Source: Roseateles puraquae
Lineage (GTDB): Bacteria; Pseudomonadota; Gammaproteobacteria; Burkholderiales; Burkholderiaceae_C
NCBI RefSeq assembly: GCF_002205845.1
Contig: NZ_NISI01000001.1
Coordinates: 372,001-436,000 of the forward strand
Length of the DNA: 64,000 bases
Reading direction: 5' to 3'
Positions 27,430 through 33,136 of the stretch are shown here, in pieces. Numbering within the stretch: the stretch's first letter is position 1; the number at the start of each line of letters is the position of its first letter. The translations under genes were made by a program, and so were the position numbers. Under the pieces are notes generated by a model. The model saw only the letters and a list, made by a program, of their open reading frames with translations, was not told the origin of the DNA and searched no databases.

Positions 27430-29697
27430 TTACTGCTTCACGCAGTCCACGTAGTAGTGACCGCGCCCGGTCTCCTCGTCCACCTCGTGCACGAGGCCAT
27501 GCACGTCGGTCGCGAAGCCGGGGAACTTCGCGTTGAAGGCGCGCGTGAACTTCAGATAGTCCACGATCTTCTTGTTGAAGCGCTCACCCGGGATCAACAG
27601 CGGGATGCCCGGCGGGTACGGCGTCAGCAGCGAGGTGGTGATGCGGCCTTCCAGTTCGTCGATGCCGACGCGCTCGGTCTTGCGCTGGGCGATGTGGGCG
27701 TAGGCGTCAGTCGGCGTCATGGCCGGCTGCAGGTTGGACAGGTACATGTCCGTGGTCAGCCGCGCGATGTCGCCTTCAGCGTAAGCCTGATGGATGCTCT
27801 GGCAGAGATCACGCAGGCCCATGCGCTCGTACTTCGGGAACTGGGCGCAGAACTCCGGCAGGATCCGCCACAGTGGGGCGTTCTTGTCGTAGTCGTCCTT
27901 GAACTGCTGCAGCGCGGTGAGCAGCGTGTTCCAGCGGCCCTTGGTGATGCCGATGGTGAACATGATGAAGAACGAGTAGAGCCCCGTCTTCTCGACGACC
28001 ACGCCATGCTCGACGAGGAACTTGGTGACGACTGACGCAGGGATGCCAGACGCCGCGAAGCGCCCTTCCATGTCCAGCCCGGGCGTGATGATGGTGGACT
28101 TGATCGGGTCCAGCATGTTGAAGCCTTCGGCCAGTGCCCCGAAGCCATGCCATTCCTCGTCCGCGTGCAGCATCCAGTCGGCCGAGACCGGCTCGCTGCC
28201 CTCCTCCGCCCGCAGGAAGTCCGGCCCCCAGACCTTGAACCACCAGTCGTCGCCGTAGTCCCCCTCGACCTTGCGCATTGCACGACGGAAGTCGAGCGAC
28301 TCACGGATGCTCTCTTCCACCAGCGCCGTGCCGCCCGGGGGCTCCATCATGGCGGCAGCGACGTCGCAGCTGGCGATGATGGAGTACTGGGGACTGGTGC
28401 TGGTGTGCATCAGGTAGGCCTCGTTGAAGAGGTGCTTGTCCAGCTTGACCGTCTGCGAGTCTTGCACCAACACCTGCGAAGCCTGGGAGATGCCAGCCAG
28501 CAGCTTGTGTGTCGACTGCGTGGCGTAGACGACGGCCTCCTTCGGGCGCGGGCGGTTCTTGCCCATCGCATGGAACTGACCGTAGAAGTCGTGGAAGGCC
28601 GCGTGCGGCAGCCAGGCCTCGTCGAAGTGCAAGGTCGGGATGTAGCCGTCGAGCTTCTTCTTGATGGTCTCGGTGTTGTAGAGCACACCGTCGTAGGTGC
28701 TCTGCGTCAGCGTCAGGATGGCGGGCTTGATCTTGTCGGGATCGACACCGGCCAGCAGCGGGTTCGCCGCGATCTTGGCGCGAATCGCCTCCGGGCTGAA
28801 CTCGCTTTCCGGGATGGGGCCGATGATGCCGTAGTGGTTGCGCGTCGGCGGGAGGAAGACCGGAATGGCCCCGCACATGATGATCGCGTGCAGATTGCTC
28901 TTGTGGCAGTTGCGGTCGATAACCACCACATCACCCGGCGCCACGGTGTGGTGCCACACCATCTTGTTGGAGGTGGAGGTCCCGTTCGTCACGAAGAAGC
29001 AGTGGTCGGCATTGAAGATGCGCGCTGCGTTCTTCTCGGATGCCGCGACGGGGCCGGTGTGGTCGAGCAACTGGCCGAGTTCTTCCACGGCGTTGCAGAC
29101 GTCAGCGCGGAGCATGTTCTCGCCGAAGAACTGATGGAACATCTGCCCCACTGGGCTCTTCAGAAAGGCGACGCCGCCAGAATGCCCGGGGCAATGCCAG
29201 GAGTACGAGCCGTCCTGGGCGTAGTCCATCAACGCCTTGAAGAACGGCGGCGCCAGACCGTCGAGGTAGCTCTTGGCCTCGCGGATGATGTGGCGCGCCA
29301 CAAACTCCGGCGTGTCCTCGAACATGTGAATGAAGCCGTGCAACTCGCGCAGCACGTCATTGGGCAAATGCTGGCTGGTGCGCGTCTCGCCGTAGACGTA
29401 GATCGGGATGTCCGGATTGCGGAAACGGATTTCCTCAATGAACTTGCGCAGGTTCAGCACGGCCGGATCGAGGTCGGGGCCGGAGGTGAACTCCTCGTCG
29501 TCGATCGACAGGATGAAGGCGGAGGCGCGGCTTTGCTGCTGGGCGAACTGCGACAGGTCGCCGTAGCTCGTCACCCCCAACACCTCCATGCCCTCTTTCT
29601 GGATGGCCTCGGCCAGCGCGCGGATACCCAGGCCCGAGGTGTTCTCGGAGCGATAGTCCTCGTCAATGATGACGATGGGGAAATGAAAACGGATCAT
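27430..29697 (-). CDS. Orn/Lys/Arg family PLP-dependent amino-acid decarboxylase
   Basis: A 755-residue fold-type I decarboxylase, the size of inducible arginine, lysine and ornithine decarboxylases. N-terminal receiver-like wing domain ('MIRFHFPIVIIDEDYRSENTSGLGIRALAEAIQKEG'), PLP core with 'SWHCPGHSGGVAFLKSPVG', 'TNGTSTSNKMVWHHTV', 'LHFDEAWLPHAAFHDFYG' and the Schiff-base lysine in 'TQSTHKLLAGISQAS', then the C domain 'TPYPPGIPLLIPGERF'. Makes a polyamine or its precursor; which amino acid is not certain, arginine or lysine being most likely. ATG 29697 follows a GGAGG site; a longer frame adds non-family residues. Confidence 0.92.
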   Translation of the reverse strand: MIRFHFPIVIIDEDYRSENTSGLGIRALAEAIQKEGMEVLGVTSYGDLSQFAQQQSRASAFILSIDDEEFTSGPDLDPAVLNLRKFIEEIRFRNPDIPIYVYGETRTSQHLPNDVLRELHGFIHMFEDTPEFVARHIIREAKSYLDGLAPPFFKALMDYAQDGSYSWHCPGHSGGVAFLKSPVGQMFHQFFGENMLRADVCNAVEELGQLLDHTGPVAASEKNAARIFNADHCFFVTNGTSTSNKMVWHHTVAPGDVVVIDRNCHKSNLHAIIMCGAIPVFLPPTRNHYGIIGPIPESEFSPEAIRAKIAANPLLAGVDPDKIKPAILTLTQSTYDGVLYNTETIKKKLDGYIPTLHFDEAWLPHAAFHDFYGQFHAMGKNRPRPKEAVVYATQSTHKLLAGISQASQVLVQDSQTVKLDKHLFNEAYLMHTSTSPQYSIIASCDVAAAMMEPPGGTALVEESIRESLDFRRAMRKVEGDYGDDWWFKVWGPDFLRAEEGSEPVSADWMLHADEEWHGFGALAEGFNMLDPIKSTIITPGLDMEGRFAASGIPASVVTKFLVEHGVVVEKTGLYSFFIMFTIGITKGRWNTLLTALQQFKDDYDKNAPLWRILPEFCAQFPKYERMGLRDLCQSIHQAYAEGDIARLTTDMYLSNLQPAMTPTDAYAHIAQRKTERVGIDELEGRITTSLLTPYPPGIPLLIPGERFNKKIVDYLKFTRAFNAKFPGFATDVHGLVHEVDEETGRGHYYVDCVKQ

Positions 29698-29821
29698 CAG
29701 CGGCCTCCAGCGGGCGGGCATCAAAAAAGCGAAGCCGCGAAGTGTAGGGCCGCAGCGTGTCCCGGCCGTGTCGATGGTTGAACGCAGCGCTGGCACGTCA
29801 ACGTCGAAGGGCCGGGCAAGC

Positions 29822-29866
29822 GGAAACAAAAAAGCCCGCGAGGGCCCCGGTGGGGCGGTCGCGGGC
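29822..29866 (-). terminator. strong terminator at the end of the short-ORF transcript
   Basis: Outer stem GCCCGCGA / TCGCGGGC with an inner CCCC/GGGG pairing, followed on the minus strand by TTTTTTGTTT. The only minus-strand coding sequences it can serve are the 16-codon ORF at 29988-29938 and luxR. It insulates them from the decarboxylase gene about 125 bp further on. Confidence 0.9.
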
Positions 29867-29872
29867 ATAAGA

Positions 29873-29914
29873 CGTTCGGGGGGCGCCGAACGAAAGCGAT
29901 GGAGGTGTCGCTTT
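29873..29914 (-). other. two adjacent hairpins in the 3' region of the short-ORF transcript
   Basis: Hairpin A: AAAGCGA / TCGCTTT, arms 29893-29899 and 29908-29914. Hairpin B: CGTTCGG / CCGAACG, arms 29873-29879 and 29886-29892. They touch each other and end 6 nt before the terminator stem. Together the three hairpins occupy almost all of the sequence from about 25 nt after the short-ORF stop to the end, which suggests a stable, structured small transcript. Confidence 0.7.
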
Positions 29915-29937
29915 ACTGAGATTCCTCCGCAAGCGGG

Positions 29938-29988
29938 TCAACCGCCGGTGTAGGGCAAACCAAAAACTTCAGCAATGAGCTTCCACAT
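29938..29988 (-). CDS. candidate 16-residue peptide gene under a lux-type promoter
   Basis: ATG 29988-29986 to TGA 29940-29938, reading MWKLIAEVFGLPYTGG. A GGAG ribosome-binding site lies 7 nt before the ATG. It is preceded by a lux/las-type box (30060-30075) and a -10-like CACACT, giving a predicted leader of about 36 nt, and followed by two hairpins and a strong terminator, so it looks like the only reading frame of an RNA of about 200 nt. Codons end often in A/T (ATT, GCT, GAA, GTT, TTT), unlike the GC-ending codons of neighbouring genes. I recognise no family. It may be a secreted or cytoplasmic signal peptide, a leader peptide, or an incidental frame on a small regulatory RNA. No processing or export gene is adjacent. 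Confidence 0.55.
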   Translation of the reverse strand: MWKLIAEVFGLPYTGG

Positions 29989-30030
29989 GTTTCACTCCGT
30001 CTGGCCTTACGCCGTGATTCGATGGAGTTC

Positions 30031-30075
30031 AGTGTGCGGGAGCGTGCAATTTTGAGGAACTACAAACCCTGGTAG
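30031..30075 (-). promoter_or_regulatory. lux/las-type box and -10 for the short ORF
   Basis: The minus strand reads CTACCAGGGTTTGTAG (30075-30060), which fits CT-N12-AG, the form known for LasR/RhlR boxes, with CTAC/GTAG ends. Exactly 23 nt later comes CACACTGA (30036-30029), a plausible -10. This places the box centre near -42, the normal position for LuxR-type activation. It starts 21 bp after the luxR stop codon. Confidence 0.75.
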
Positions 30076-30096
30076 GGCGGCCAAGCCACAACCGCT

Positions 30097-30801
30097 CTAC
30101 AGCAGTCCGAGTTCCATGGCCTTCAAGACCGCATGATTCTTGTTCGAAACATCCAGCTGCTTGAAAAGCTGCTTGAGGTGGTAGTTCACCGTGTTTTCGC
30201 TGATGCCTAGCAAACTACCGACTACCCAGGCGCTTTTGCCCTCCATGGTCAGACGGAGGATCTCAAGTTGCCTGGCCGGAAGCCGCGGCACCTTGGTAGG
30301 CACAAGCAGCCTCGCGGCAGCATCTTGGGCGTGGACGGCCAGCAATTGCAAATCCGCGATCATTCGGTTGAGCTTGATCGGGTCCGACGGGAGCGGCTCA
30401 TGCCGATCAACCCCGAGAAGAAATCGCCGATAGCCCGGCATGTGAACGCTGACGGCCAGCCCGGTTCTATAGCCGAACGGGGCTTGCATCTCCCAAAGAT
30501 CTCCGGAGCCGGCATCGACGTAAAGCCGCTGGTCGTAGATGAGCGGAGCAGCGTTCGTCATCACATGCCGATGCACTGGATCACGCTTCGCGTTCTCCGG
30601 GTTGACCTGAGCAGCCAGGAACTCCGCAGGTGTGTTGCCCACTGAGAAGTACTCCGTCTTGGCTCCGGGGCCCTTGCGCTCCACGGCAAGGACTCCGGAG
30701 ATCAGCCCGAAGTCCAGGTCACCCGCGAAGTCGATCAACCCCTGTCGGAAGGAGTCGAAATCTGCCGCTTGACTGACTTGTTCGTACCGCTGCAGGTTCA
30801 T
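30097..30801 (-). CDS. LuxR-type autoinducer-domain transcriptional regulator (no luxI in window)
   Basis: 234 residues. Residues 15-160 match the autoinducer-binding domain and 172-230 the GerE helix-turn-helix ('LPARQLEILRLTMEGKSAWVVGSLLGISENTVNYHLKQLFKQLDV'). In the WxxxY-N8-DP pattern that holds acyl-homoserine lactones, Asp74-Pro75 are kept, but the Trp, Tyr and second Trp (TraR W57, Y61, W85) align with Phe61, Gln65 and Tyr89. The ligand may therefore be altered or not an acyl-homoserine lactone (inference). The ATG has no obvious Shine-Dalgarno, and a lux-type box lies only 3 nt before it, which would suit autorepression. Divergent from a DUF4902/RsaM-like gene; the short ORF lies downstream on the same strand. 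Confidence 0.9.
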   Translation of the reverse strand: MNLQRYEQVSQAADFDSFRQGLIDFAGDLDFGLISGVLAVERKGPGAKTEYFSVGNTPAEFLAAQVNPENAKRDPVHRHVMTNAAPLIYDQRLYVDAGSGDLWEMQAPFGYRTGLAVSVHMPGYRRFLLGVDRHEPLPSDPIKLNRMIADLQLLAVHAQDAAARLLVPTKVPRLPARQLEILRLTMEGKSAWVVGSLLGISENTVNYHLKQLFKQLDVSNKNHAVLKAMELGLL

Positions 30802-30804
30802 GCG

Positions 30805-30849
30805 CTACTAGGGTTGGTAGGCGCAGCGCGCCCTCGATGAACGCAAACT
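30805..30849 (+). promoter_or_regulatory. lux/las-type box and -10 for the RsaM-like gene
   Basis: CTACTAGGGTTGGTAG at 30805-30820 matches the short-ORF box at 14 of 16 positions. CAAACTGA starts exactly 23 nt after it (30844), the same spacing as at the other promoter. The predicted transcription start is near 30856, about 23 nt before the ATG at 30879. On the other strand the box lies directly before the luxR ATG. Confidence 0.75.
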
Positions 30850-30878
30850 GACAGCCATCCAAATGACGGGAGATCCGA

Positions 30879-31253
30879 ATGCAGATAGCTGCTTGGCAAC
30901 TGATGGCCTGCGAGACGGTTATCAAGACTGTAAACGAGTTCCAATTGGCAACCCATGAACTGCGTCAAGTCGGAAGCAGCGTTAGGGTGCACGATGCACG
31001 GTCCGGCCTGCGATGCGGCCAGGAGGTCTGGGCGACGATCGACGAGGGTGGTCCGATCCAGATTGCATGGGAATGGACGGAGATCCAACCCAACGTCGTG
31101 GCCCTGTTCGATCCGATGAACATCCTTTGCAACGTCGCGCTGGTCGATGGCCATGGGCACACGCTGGCGCGCTCGCGCCGCATGCTGCACCTCAACAATG
31201 TCGTGCACCAGCTCGAATGGCGTGACGCCCTGTGCACACGCAAGGCGGCCTGA
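30879..31253 (+). CDS. DUF4902/RsaM-like protein
   Basis: 124 residues; ATG 30879 after a GGGAG site. The C-terminal two thirds ('GQEVWATIDEGGPIQIAWEWTEIQ', 'VVALFDPMNILCNVALVDGHGHTLARSRRMLHLNNVVHQLEWRDAL') follow the pattern I recall for DUF4902/RsaM proteins: a W...I.I.W.W core, then N..LVD..G..L and a final LxW helix. RsaM is known as a negative modulator encoded between luxI and luxR in Burkholderia and some Pseudomonas. Here it is divergent from luxR with a lux-type box between. Family assignment is from memory of the pattern and needs a profile search. The product is probably cytoplasmic. Confidence 0.65.
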   Translation: MQIAAWQLMACETVIKTVNEFQLATHELRQVGSSVRVHDARSGLRCGQEVWATIDEGGPIQIAWEWTEIQPNVVALFDPMNILCNVALVDGHGHTLARSRRMLHLNNVVHQLEWRDALCTRKAA

Positions 31254-31306: not shown

Positions 31307-31398
<92 letters not shown>

Positions 31399-32375: not shown

Positions 32376-32452
32376 TGGCGGAGTGGACGGGGCTCGAACC
32401 CGCGACCCCCGGCGTGACAGGCCGGTATTCTAACCAACTGAACTACCACTCC
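32376..32452 (-). tRNA. tRNA-Asp(GTC), second copy
   Basis: 77 nt with encoded CCA. Acceptor GGAGTGG/CCACTCC, D loop AGTTCAGTTGGTTAGAA, anticodon GTC in CTGTCAC. Its mature sequence is the same as the copy at 32806-32882. Confidence 0.97.
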
Positions 32453-32535
32453 GCGTGGGATGATTTCGATATCGTCTTTCGACTCAATCCAAGCTCATCA
32501 AACTCGCCTGTCTTGCAACAGGAAACCAGTATAAC

Positions 32536-32611
32536 TGGCGTCCCCTAGGGGATTCGAACCCCTGTAATCACCGTGAAAGGGTGGTGTCCTAGGCCTCTAG
32601 ACGAAGGGGAC
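32536..32611 (-). tRNA. tRNA-Glu(TTC), second copy
   Basis: 76 nt with encoded CCA. Acceptor GTCCCCT/AGGGGAC, anticodon TTC in CTTTCAC, T arm GGGGTTCGAATCCCC. Same sequence as the copy at 32935-33010. Confidence 0.97.
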
Positions 32612-32656
32612 TTCAACTTTCACACTTTCTGAGTCCGGCCAATTCCCTCGGGAATT

Positions 32657-32732
<76 letters not shown>

Positions 32733-32745
32733 GGGAACCAGTCTC

Positions 32746-32775
32746 AAAAAGCAAACGGCCAATAAATTGGCCGTT
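32746..32775 (-). terminator. terminator-like palindrome inside the tRNA cluster
   Basis: 10-bp stem AACGGCCAAT / ATTGGCCGTT with a 2-nt loop, followed on the minus strand by TTTGCTTTTT. It lies between the first tRNA-Asp and the second tRNA-Ala, 14 nt before the latter's 5' end, and should stop part of the transcription before the second triplet. Confidence 0.75.
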
Positions 32776-32805
32776 CGTTGCTCGGGCAAGCCCGACGAAA
32801 ACCTT

Positions 32806-32882
32806 TGGCGGAGTGGACGGGGCTCGAACCCGCGACCCCCGGCGTGACAGGCCGGTATTCTAACCAACTGAACTACCACTCC
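32806..32882 (-). tRNA. tRNA-Asp(GTC), first copy
   Basis: 77 nt with encoded CCA; identical to the copy at 32376-32452, with about 17 bp of the 5' flank (CGCGTGGGATGATTTCGAT) also shared. Confidence 0.97.
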
Positions 32883-32934
32883 GCGTGGGATGATTTCGAT
32901 AACGCTTTGCAGCACTATCCAAGTTCATCAAACT

Positions 32935-33010
32935 TGGCGTCCCCTAGGGGATTCGAACCCCTGTAATCACCGTGAAAGGGTGGTGTCCTAGGCCTCTAGA
33001 CGAAGGGGAC
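32935..33010 (-). tRNA. tRNA-Glu(TTC), first copy
   Basis: 76 nt with encoded CCA; identical to the copy at 32536-32611. gltX, which charges it, lies just upstream on the same strand. Confidence 0.97.
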
Positions 33011-33060
33011 TAAACCTTCGTGGCTTGAACTGCGCGCCACTCAAATCTCGTTGGAGATTT

Positions 33061-33136
<76 letters not shown>

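Follow-up and report, generated by a model that had tools for sequence, protein, structure and literature searches.

A LuxR-type receptor beside a lux-boxed 16-codon gene in Roseateles puraquae: a candidate ribosomal pheromone unit of Burkholderiales

LuxR-type proteins are the textbook quorum-sensing receptors of Gram-negative bacteria, and encoded peptide pheromones are treated as the Gram-positive way of signaling. In a 64,000-nucleotide stretch of the Roseateles puraquae genome (hereafter the window, to whose numbering all coordinates refer), a luxR-type gene and a divergent RsaM-like gene stand beside a 16-codon open reading frame (ORF) that occupies the slot of a regulated luxI. What, then, does this receptor read, and what does it drive? 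From comparison of related loci, we judge it reasonably probable that the locus is a self-contained signaling unit, in which a ribosomally made peptide pheromone would be read by the LuxR receptor. We also lean, more cautiously, toward a broader view. One entire LuxR branch, present in about one-quarter of the genomes sampled from a single Burkholderiales family and mostly accompanied by its own C39 exporter, would have switched from acyl-homoserine lactones (AHLs) to ribosomal P-x-x-x-W pheromones. For the window's genus, this view has a leaderless 16-residue form encoded on a transcript with a second role as regulatory RNA.

The lux-boxed unit and its small ORF

The luxR gene (30097–30801, minus strand) encodes 234 residues with Autoind_bind and GerE domains (Pfam, 2.1e-15 and 9.6e-13, respectively) and has no linked luxI, as in a LuxR solo. 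On the minus strand, its stop codon is followed after 21 nt by a lux box, CTACCAGGGTTTGTAG (30060–30075), then by the 16-codon ORF, MWKLIAEVFGLPYTGG plus stop (29938–29988), and then by an intrinsic terminator (29828–29866; stem 29834–29866 and U run 29828–29833, with a smaller stem in a simple scan). The Shine-Dalgarno sequence of the ORF, GGAG, ends 6 nt upstream of its ATG. We propose the ORF product as a leaderless peptide pheromone on the basis of its conservation, its nonsynonymous-to-synonymous ratio (pN/pS), and its likeness in motif to the peptides of other genera. A second lux box, CTACTAGGGTTGGTAG (30805–30820, plus strand), lies 3 nt upstream of the luxR start codon and faces the RsaM-like gene (30879–31253, plus strand; 124 residues), which diverges from luxR and was assigned by profile comparisons. 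The two boxes are alike in 14 of 16 bases and share their orientation, each pointing at one output. A sequence-only reading of the locus had named the LuxR-type gene, the divergent 124-residue gene, the 16-codon ORF with its ribosome-binding site, the terminator, and the two near-identical boxes, all of which we confirmed; to these we add the equal promoter spacing on both sides, a hairpin over the ribosome-binding site, two conserved 3′ hairpins, and a second complete unit.

Both boxes are followed, 23 nt on, by a putative −10-like element, CACACTG on the ORF side (30030–30036, minus strand) and CAAACTG on the RsaM side (30844–30850, plus strand). Across the 15 close loci, i.e. the window and L004–L017, the box upstream of the small ORF is always kept (variant boxes occur in L018 and L019), and CANACTG stands 23 nt after it in 12, with one mismatch in L007, L008, and L017. 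On the RsaM side, the motif lies exactly 23 nt after the box in 13 of the 15; L009 has one mismatch and L013 a one-base shift. The pattern shared by the two boxes, CTACYAGGGTTKGTAG, has no exact match in the 6.06-Mb genome other than these two sites. No site matches with one mismatch, and four match with two, compared with three for a reversed-pattern control. A genome scan with the window's box pattern thus gave no additional near-exact box that would indicate a further regulon.

The same genome contains a second complete unit (locus L025, contig C6, approximately 60.6–62.1 kb) with its own receptor, LuxR2, an RsaM-like gene, the box pair CTGGCAGACTTGTCAG and CTGGAAGACTTGCTAG, and the peptide MSLIDAILVTLGLPRLGG. 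This unit has diverged and resembles L019 and the second units found in many genomes of the genus. Its box has one 1-mismatch site in the genome and 17 two-mismatch sites, the control also giving 17. The boxes match within each unit and differ between the two units, the pattern to be expected were each LuxR to act on the boxes of its own unit.

Scanning genomes with the window's LuxR, we obtained 16 named loci. They belong to Roseateles, Pelomonas, Rubrivivax, and Burkholderiales of less exact classification, and one genome contributes both L005 and L019. All 16 keep the box downstream of luxR, the small ORF, and the divergent gene, and the conservation test that the sequence-only reading had proposed therefore came out positive; L018 has no clean box on the divergent side. 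The small ORF spans 16–24 codons in these loci and ends in GLPYTGG, GLPYFGG, GFPITGN, GLPRVGGW, or a similar sequence. Over 14 aligned codons in 15 sequences, codon positions 1, 2, and 3 showed 0.37, 0.13, and 0.57 differences per site, and pN/pS was 0.375, a value as low as which was reached in none of 400 column shuffles. These figures are a clear sign of purifying selection at the codon level. The N-terminal letters are variable: when 399 family genomes were searched with a degenerate DNA pattern encoding residues 1–10, the window's own genome was the single match. Within the genus, the LuxR clade was present in all 20 genomes searched, 16 of which have at least two copies, and the peptide was seen in 29 of the 30 loci fetched. 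The remaining locus (L038) is mis-framed near a contig end, and L010, apparently the same place by coordinates, has the peptide. We also considered an LPXTG sortase substrate and rejected it; the window's LPYTG becomes LPYFG, LPYGG, and FPITG in close relatives.

A search with the luxI profile, PF00765, gave no match in the window's genome. The profile matched 34 of 149 relatives, and the strong matches among them (including those in G013, G028, G035, G049, and G071) indicate that the search works. Eight of the 20 genus genomes have N-terminal partial matches only, at 25–34.5 bits, formally above the Pfam cutoff of 24. Together with the conserved ORF and box, these results support the earlier proposal that a very small gene stands where a regulated luxI would be. 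We take W57, Y61, D70, P71, W85, and G113 (TraR numbering) to be the AHL-contact residues. Across 92 loci, the equivalent positions hold the same residue in 5, 12, 90, 92, 70, and 92, respectively, and at the first of them, Y or F replaces the tryptophan that contacts the AHL head group in 85. The window's LuxR has F, Q, D, P, Y, and G at these positions and does not carry the complete AHL-contact set.

Peptides and exporters in other genera

The LuxR clade was searched with a model built from six LuxR sequences (E ≤ 1e-38) in 399 sampled genomes of the family. It was found in 103 of these genomes and in 39 of 141 genera, and in none of the 228 other genomes of the class sample at E ≤ 1e-45. 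Of the 147 places obtained, 135 lie outside the genus; from the latter we fetched 80 regions (L083–L162) and later 20 more, a few of which hold several places. In 76 of the 80 loci, an RsaM-like gene lies upstream of the best LuxR and diverges from it. With a box defined as CT-N12-AG having at least 5 of 8 arms paired, a downstream box was present in 68 loci (compared with 117 of 1600 base shuffles) and an upstream box in 56.

Most of these loci hold, in the slot of the small ORF, a double-glycine peptide of 45–80 residues, with a leader ending in LxxVSGG or alike and a short xPxxxW core. Across all 100 regions fetched outside the genus, a peptide belonging to one motif family fills this slot almost without exception. 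Examples from other genera are VTGGLPRVGGW, VAGGTSLPVKGW, and VSGGAPKSTW..APKSTW. At least two PxxxW cores occur in 21 of the 80 loci, where the core is repeated two to five times, as in GPNGGW (five copies) and DPSPKGTW (four copies). A fixed peptide rule found an ORF in 74 of 79 loci (L102, which has no flank, was dropped). Applied to the reverse strand, it found one in 2 of 79, and among Markov resamples in 242 of 3160. The 20 regions fetched later include L184 and L186, which had earlier been seen as short loci, and L167, which resembles L141; the rule found a peptide in 13 of the 20, and the motif was recognized by eye in four more (L169, L170, L176, and L177). Eight peptides compared with NCBIfam and three compared with Pfam gave no match above the cutoff to a known peptide family; the best NCBIfam scores were weak and mostly to models of leaders of ribosomally synthesized and post-translationally modified peptides.

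Leader and exporter tend to occur together. An HlyD gene and a C39-peptidase ATP-binding cassette (ABC) transporter gene lie about 1.1 and 2.3 kb, respectively, from the luxR start on the same strand (one of each was Pfam-checked). We tabulated the 94 peptide-bearing loci in which over 4.5 kb of room was available, scoring as C39 an ECGLAC-type frame 0.9–5.2 kb on. The automatic table counted 52 loci with leader and C39, 6 with a leader alone, 4 with C39 alone, and 32 with neither; after checking by eye, the counts were 56, 10, 0, and 26. Eight loci became leader-type in that check (L089, where the wrong ORF had been picked, L091, L105, L134, L135, L141, L142, and L156), L093 (VVGS) and L095 (no credible peptide) were dropped, and L160 stood outside the table for insufficient flank. 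By the corrected counts, a C39 exporter adjoins 56 of 66 leader-type units and none of 26 leaderless units. All six C39-bearing loci in the 20 further regions (L168, L169, L171, L180, L184, and L186) likewise have leaders.

The window's ORF has no double-glycine leader and the C39 domain has no match in the window's genome, so that the leader-exporter pair is absent here; 10 of the 20 genus genomes have a C39 domain. The median distance from box to ATG is 76.5 nt with C39 (50 loci) and 72 nt without (32 loci), and because these distances are similar, the long and the short peptides seem to fill one slot. The window locus appears to be the reduced end of a larger system.

Downstream of the unit, a gene with an MnmG-like motif occurs in 49 of the 80 fetched loci, and an ABC-2-like permease gene occurs upstream in 44; both are putative names based on sequence motifs. 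These recurrent neighbors suggest an old, fixed chromosomal place for the unit. Spread on plasmids found no support: when 72,556 plasmid records were searched with L026, a relative of the LuxR, none matched at E ≤ 1e-30. An order-wide search with an RsaM-like profile matched 4 of 399 genomes, only 10 candidates being scored in most of them. Two of these matches lie outside the family, L027 (described below) and L028, a short contig with no LuxR match.

Some loci are built differently. In L112, L124, L125, L135, and L152, tandem arrays of three to five LuxR paralogues stand by one peptide gene, and the usual box follows only the peptide-adjacent copy. L141, L142, and L167 encode peptides with four PSPKGTW-like cores, and inspection by eye of L141 and L142 showed a nearby C39-like reading frame without the ECGLAC motif. 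Variant peptides with residues past the core (LPRVGGLGG..., FPTTGGW...) are encoded in L090, L092, L153, L176, and L177.

Receptor pocket, peptide core, and candidate mechanism

We compared the receptors with the peptide cores in 92 of 98 loci. The other six were three loci without a peptide (L027, L102, and L122) and three that we excluded manually (L093, L095, and L115); for L014–L016 and L147, the core was assigned manually. The 98 include near kin of the window's copy but not that copy itself. Distance tests used 80 loci dereplicated from the 92, mismatches in the six-residue core, and 1000 permutations.

Distances between ligand domains followed distances between cores, with a partial r of 0.29 given the helix-turn-helix (HTH) domain and 0.35 given the RsaM-like protein (n = 79; p = 0.001 each). 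The HTH domain and the RsaM-like protein had raw r values of 0.41 and 0.36 with the core, and neither correlated with it once the ligand domain was removed. For C39 units only (n = 47), the partial r of the ligand domain was 0.19–0.25 given HTH, RsaM, exporter, or HlyD (0.25 for the exporter and 0.22 for HlyD; p = 0.001 each), 0.33 given MnmG (a neighbor gene named from its motif; n = 29; p = 0.001), and 0.20 with four control genes taken jointly (p = 0.001). After accounting for the ligand domain, there was no covariation of the core with HTH, RsaM, exporter, HlyD, or MnmG. Without the genus and the named loci, the ligand domain still gave r = 0.16 (p = 0.002; n = 64).

The covariation is concentrated in the ligand pocket. 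A pocket test with offset numbering and another residue list gave the same direction as the LasR-aligned test reported here. For the latter, LasR contacts were taken from a table row in PMC9654057 (its two Leu38 entries read as 39 and 40), with Tyr56, Trp60, Asp73, and Ser129 added from passages of PMC10613653. Over all loci, the 19 pocket-equivalent columns had a mean z of 2.95, compared with 0.03 for the 113 other ligand-domain columns (p = 1.7e-6); the 46 HTH and linker columns had a mean z of −0.26. In C39 units (n = 48), the corresponding values were 1.72 for 16 pocket columns and −0.11 for 100 others (p = 5.7e-4).

These data suggest the following mechanism. Judging from the position and spacing of the boxes, LuxR would bind both and activate the peptide transcript together with the divergent RsaM-like modulator. 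The peptide would be the signal: its C-terminal core, GLPYTGG here and mostly xPxxxW elsewhere, would bind the LuxR ligand pocket, as the covariation indicates, and binding would close a positive feedback loop. In most loci of other genera, the double-glycine precursor is presumably cut and exported by the adjacent C39 peptidase/ABC transporter with HlyD, and the exported peptide would need re-uptake. In the window's genus and some others, the leaderless peptide of 10–27 residues, without a C39 exporter, would have to exit by a different route or else work within the cell.

The peptide could instead be the output. A LuxR solo would then sense a small molecule (a neighbor's AHL, a plant compound, or another) and drive a secreted effector peptide, such as a small bacteriocin or surface-active peptide. 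We regard this as unlikely, if the most probable of the alternatives. A double-glycine leader with a C39 exporter is also the arrangement of microcins, which counts in its favor, as does the D70 equivalent conserved in nearly all receptors. LuxR solos with varied ligands, non-peptide ones among them, are described in a review (PMC10134790), and small immunity genes may be present near the units, our neighbor survey having covered frames of at least 110 residues. An effector peptide is harder to reconcile with the covariation of the pocket columns with the core, which HTH, RsaM, exporter, HlyD, and MnmG do not show after the ligand domain is accounted for, and with cores that are short and, in the 21 loci given above, repeated.

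Several observations weigh against a peptide pheromone read by its neighboring LuxR. By the criteria of our script, a downstream box is missing from 12 of the 80 loci. Of the 20 regions fetched later, L178, L181, and L183 have no peptide, and the peptide rule was written after the counted loci had been seen, one of its 74 finds (L095) being judged spurious. As regards the exporter, the leaderless sample is not independent, since the 16 named loci and the second unit make up 17 of its 26 members. Ten leader-type units lack a C39 match by our criteria; among these, L110 and L152 have related exporters farther away and L150 lies at a contig end. No importer was recognized beside the units in neighbor clusters of frames of at least 110 residues, which were not family-searched. 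The window's GLPYTGG has neither the W nor the basic residue of the majority core, and its kinship to xPxxxW rests on position, promoter, and the intermediates GLPRLGG and GLPRVGGW, with no alignment statistic. The residue before P is, by itself, weakly correlated in C39 units (r = 0.09; p = 0.034), and shared ancestry can inflate Mantel-type permutation tests such as ours, which are controlled by same-locus genes and not by a full phylogenetic model. In L027, which lies outside the family, an RsaM-like gene occurs with a distant LuxR after which no peptide was seen, and at least two genomes, G013 and G028, have both the unit and a true luxI, on different contigs. Because the D70 and G113 equivalents are kept (90 and 92 of 92 loci, respectively), a non-peptide amide ligand is also possible.

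A pheromone unit of this kind has partial counterparts. Gram-positive pheromones come from ribosomal precursors, either cleaved at a double glycine by a C39 peptidase or made as short leaderless hydrophobic peptides, and act on cytoplasmic receptors with positive feedback, all of which the present system would share as proposed from its genes. RRNPP receptors are tetratricopeptide-repeat proteins with an HTH domain. Here, in contrast, the receptor is a LuxR protein with an AHL domain, neither an RRNPP protein nor a histidine kinase, and the host is Gram-negative; RRNPP membership was rejected for the window's receptor, whose domains are Autoind_bind and GerE. Section 7 of a 2026 review frames ribosomal peptide signals as a Gram-positive paradigm (PMC13220807). 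The locus resembles LuxI/LuxR systems in the domain architecture of its LuxR and in having a CT-N12-AG box at each of two promoters; it differs in the peptide gene in the luxI slot, the lack of any luxI found in the genome, and the replaced AHL head-group tryptophan. Solos of the OryR/PipR kind, too, are LuxR-type receptors that lack a luxI. Ser-His-Ser is one of the peptides to which PipR responds; it is active only at concentrations of about 1 mM and above, and the response depends on an ABC importer encoded next to pipR (PMC4981722), whereas the window locus encodes its candidate ligand next to the receptor under its own box. The closest published layout is RsaM topology type 6, a divergent rsaM and luxR solo, for which Pelomonas is listed. 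It shares with our locus the divergent rsaM-like gene and luxR and the absence of luxI; the section on it mentions no lux-boxed peptide gene, exporter, or structured RNA, and the word “peptide” occurs nowhere in the main text (PMC10710839). In the literature we searched, which leaves out most subscription papers and all preprints, we found no account of such a peptide gene linked to luxR.

If the pheromone proposal is right, Gram-negative and Gram-positive modes of signaling would meet in a LuxR receptor whose peptide is encoded beside it, and a large set of LuxR solos would gain natural ligands. Since the ligand can be read from the genome, receptor-ligand specificity would be directly testable. 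The reduced Roseateles/Pelomonas form would be a pheromone without leader and exporter, its mRNA having gained an RNA module.

Transcript RNA, RsaM-like gene, and surroundings

The small-ORF transcript also carries candidate RNA structure on the minus strand. A hairpin in the 5′ untranslated region (UTR) (29995–30027; CUCCAUC...GACGGAG) contains the Shine-Dalgarno GGAG in its 3′ arm. Compensatory changes between loci are visible by eye; RNAalifold on a MAFFT alignment did not recover the hairpin, and the window's minimum-energy fold pairs the stretch otherwise. Downstream of the ORF are hairpin 1 (29893–29914; loop CACCUCCA), described by a model, R1, and hairpin 2 (29873–29892; loop CGCCCC). 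Majority identity is 0.91 in this 3′ module, 0.77 in the ORF, 0.67 in the 5′ UTR, and 0.51 between ORF and module; L013 departs from the module. With R1, strict filters, and few candidates scored per genome, the module was found once in each of six sampled genus genomes and in none of 363 others. The same model gave no match when applied to 12 other loci, and the second unit does not have the module either. A known small RNA was rejected, there being no Rfam match over the module; the Rfam matches were tRNA-related only.

In this genus, the near-invariant two-hairpin module with its terminator, presenting CCUCC and CCCC loops, may act as a regulatory RNA and make the mRNA bifunctional. It is plausible that the module is such an RNA, laid atop the older peptide. 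The sequence-only reading had left the output as a peptide or a small RNA. Peptide ORF and 3′ RNA are each conserved, so that both may hold in this genus and the transcript may be a dual-function small RNA. VqmA-VqmR, with a LuxR-HTH regulator that switches on a small RNA beside it, and dual-function RNAs such as SgrS, with an RNA plus a small ORF, offer the nearest likeness. Sensing by VqmA relies on a PAS domain. The present receptor has an autoinducer-binding domain instead, and of peptide and RNA, the peptide would be the older and wider part.

A further alternative takes the RNA alone as the working product in this genus. LuxR would activate a small RNA whose CCUCC and CCCC loops pair with the ribosome-binding sites of targets, and the ORF would be a relic or a translation-coupled switch. 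The module is the most conserved part of the transcript and is single-copy in the six genus genomes, and because the genome has only two exact boxes, the circuit would need a trans-acting product to reach other genes. We nevertheless hold this account to be improbable, for the ORF is under codon-level selection, the second unit keeps a peptide without the module, the peptide persists outside the genus where the module was not found, and Rfam offers no match. An ordinary LuxR solo of the divergent rsaM-luxR type, in print as type 6 for Pelomonas and four other genera in the section cited above (PMC10710839), with a chance ORF and a plain terminator, is very improbable, being already contradicted by the comparative data, namely the conserved ORF and its codon-level selection, the matching boxes, the second copy of the whole unit, the link to an exporter, and the covariation.

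The divergent 124-residue protein had been called RsaM-like from the sequence, and this label stands in part. Taken alone, the window's protein scores 14.7 bits against DUF4902 (PF16245), below the Pfam cutoff of 25. Its family profile finds the RsaM structure 4o2h/BCAM1869 (E = 2.3e-4, and 1e-4 in a second run), and 31 of 40 homologues, the window's protein not among them, match DUF4902 at E ≤ 0.01. The likeness to RsaM therefore appears real but distant. The predicted structure of the protein has a mean predicted local distance difference test score of 51.8, too poor for a fold comparison with RsaM.

Downstream of the terminator lies an Orn/Lys/Arg decarboxylase ORF (27430–29868). Its true start is probably further inside the listed ORF, because the listed start overlaps the terminator. 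On the other side of the unit are a tRNA-Ser (31307–31397) and, on the minus strand at 32376–33136, an Asp-Glu-Ala tRNA trio in two tandem repeats.

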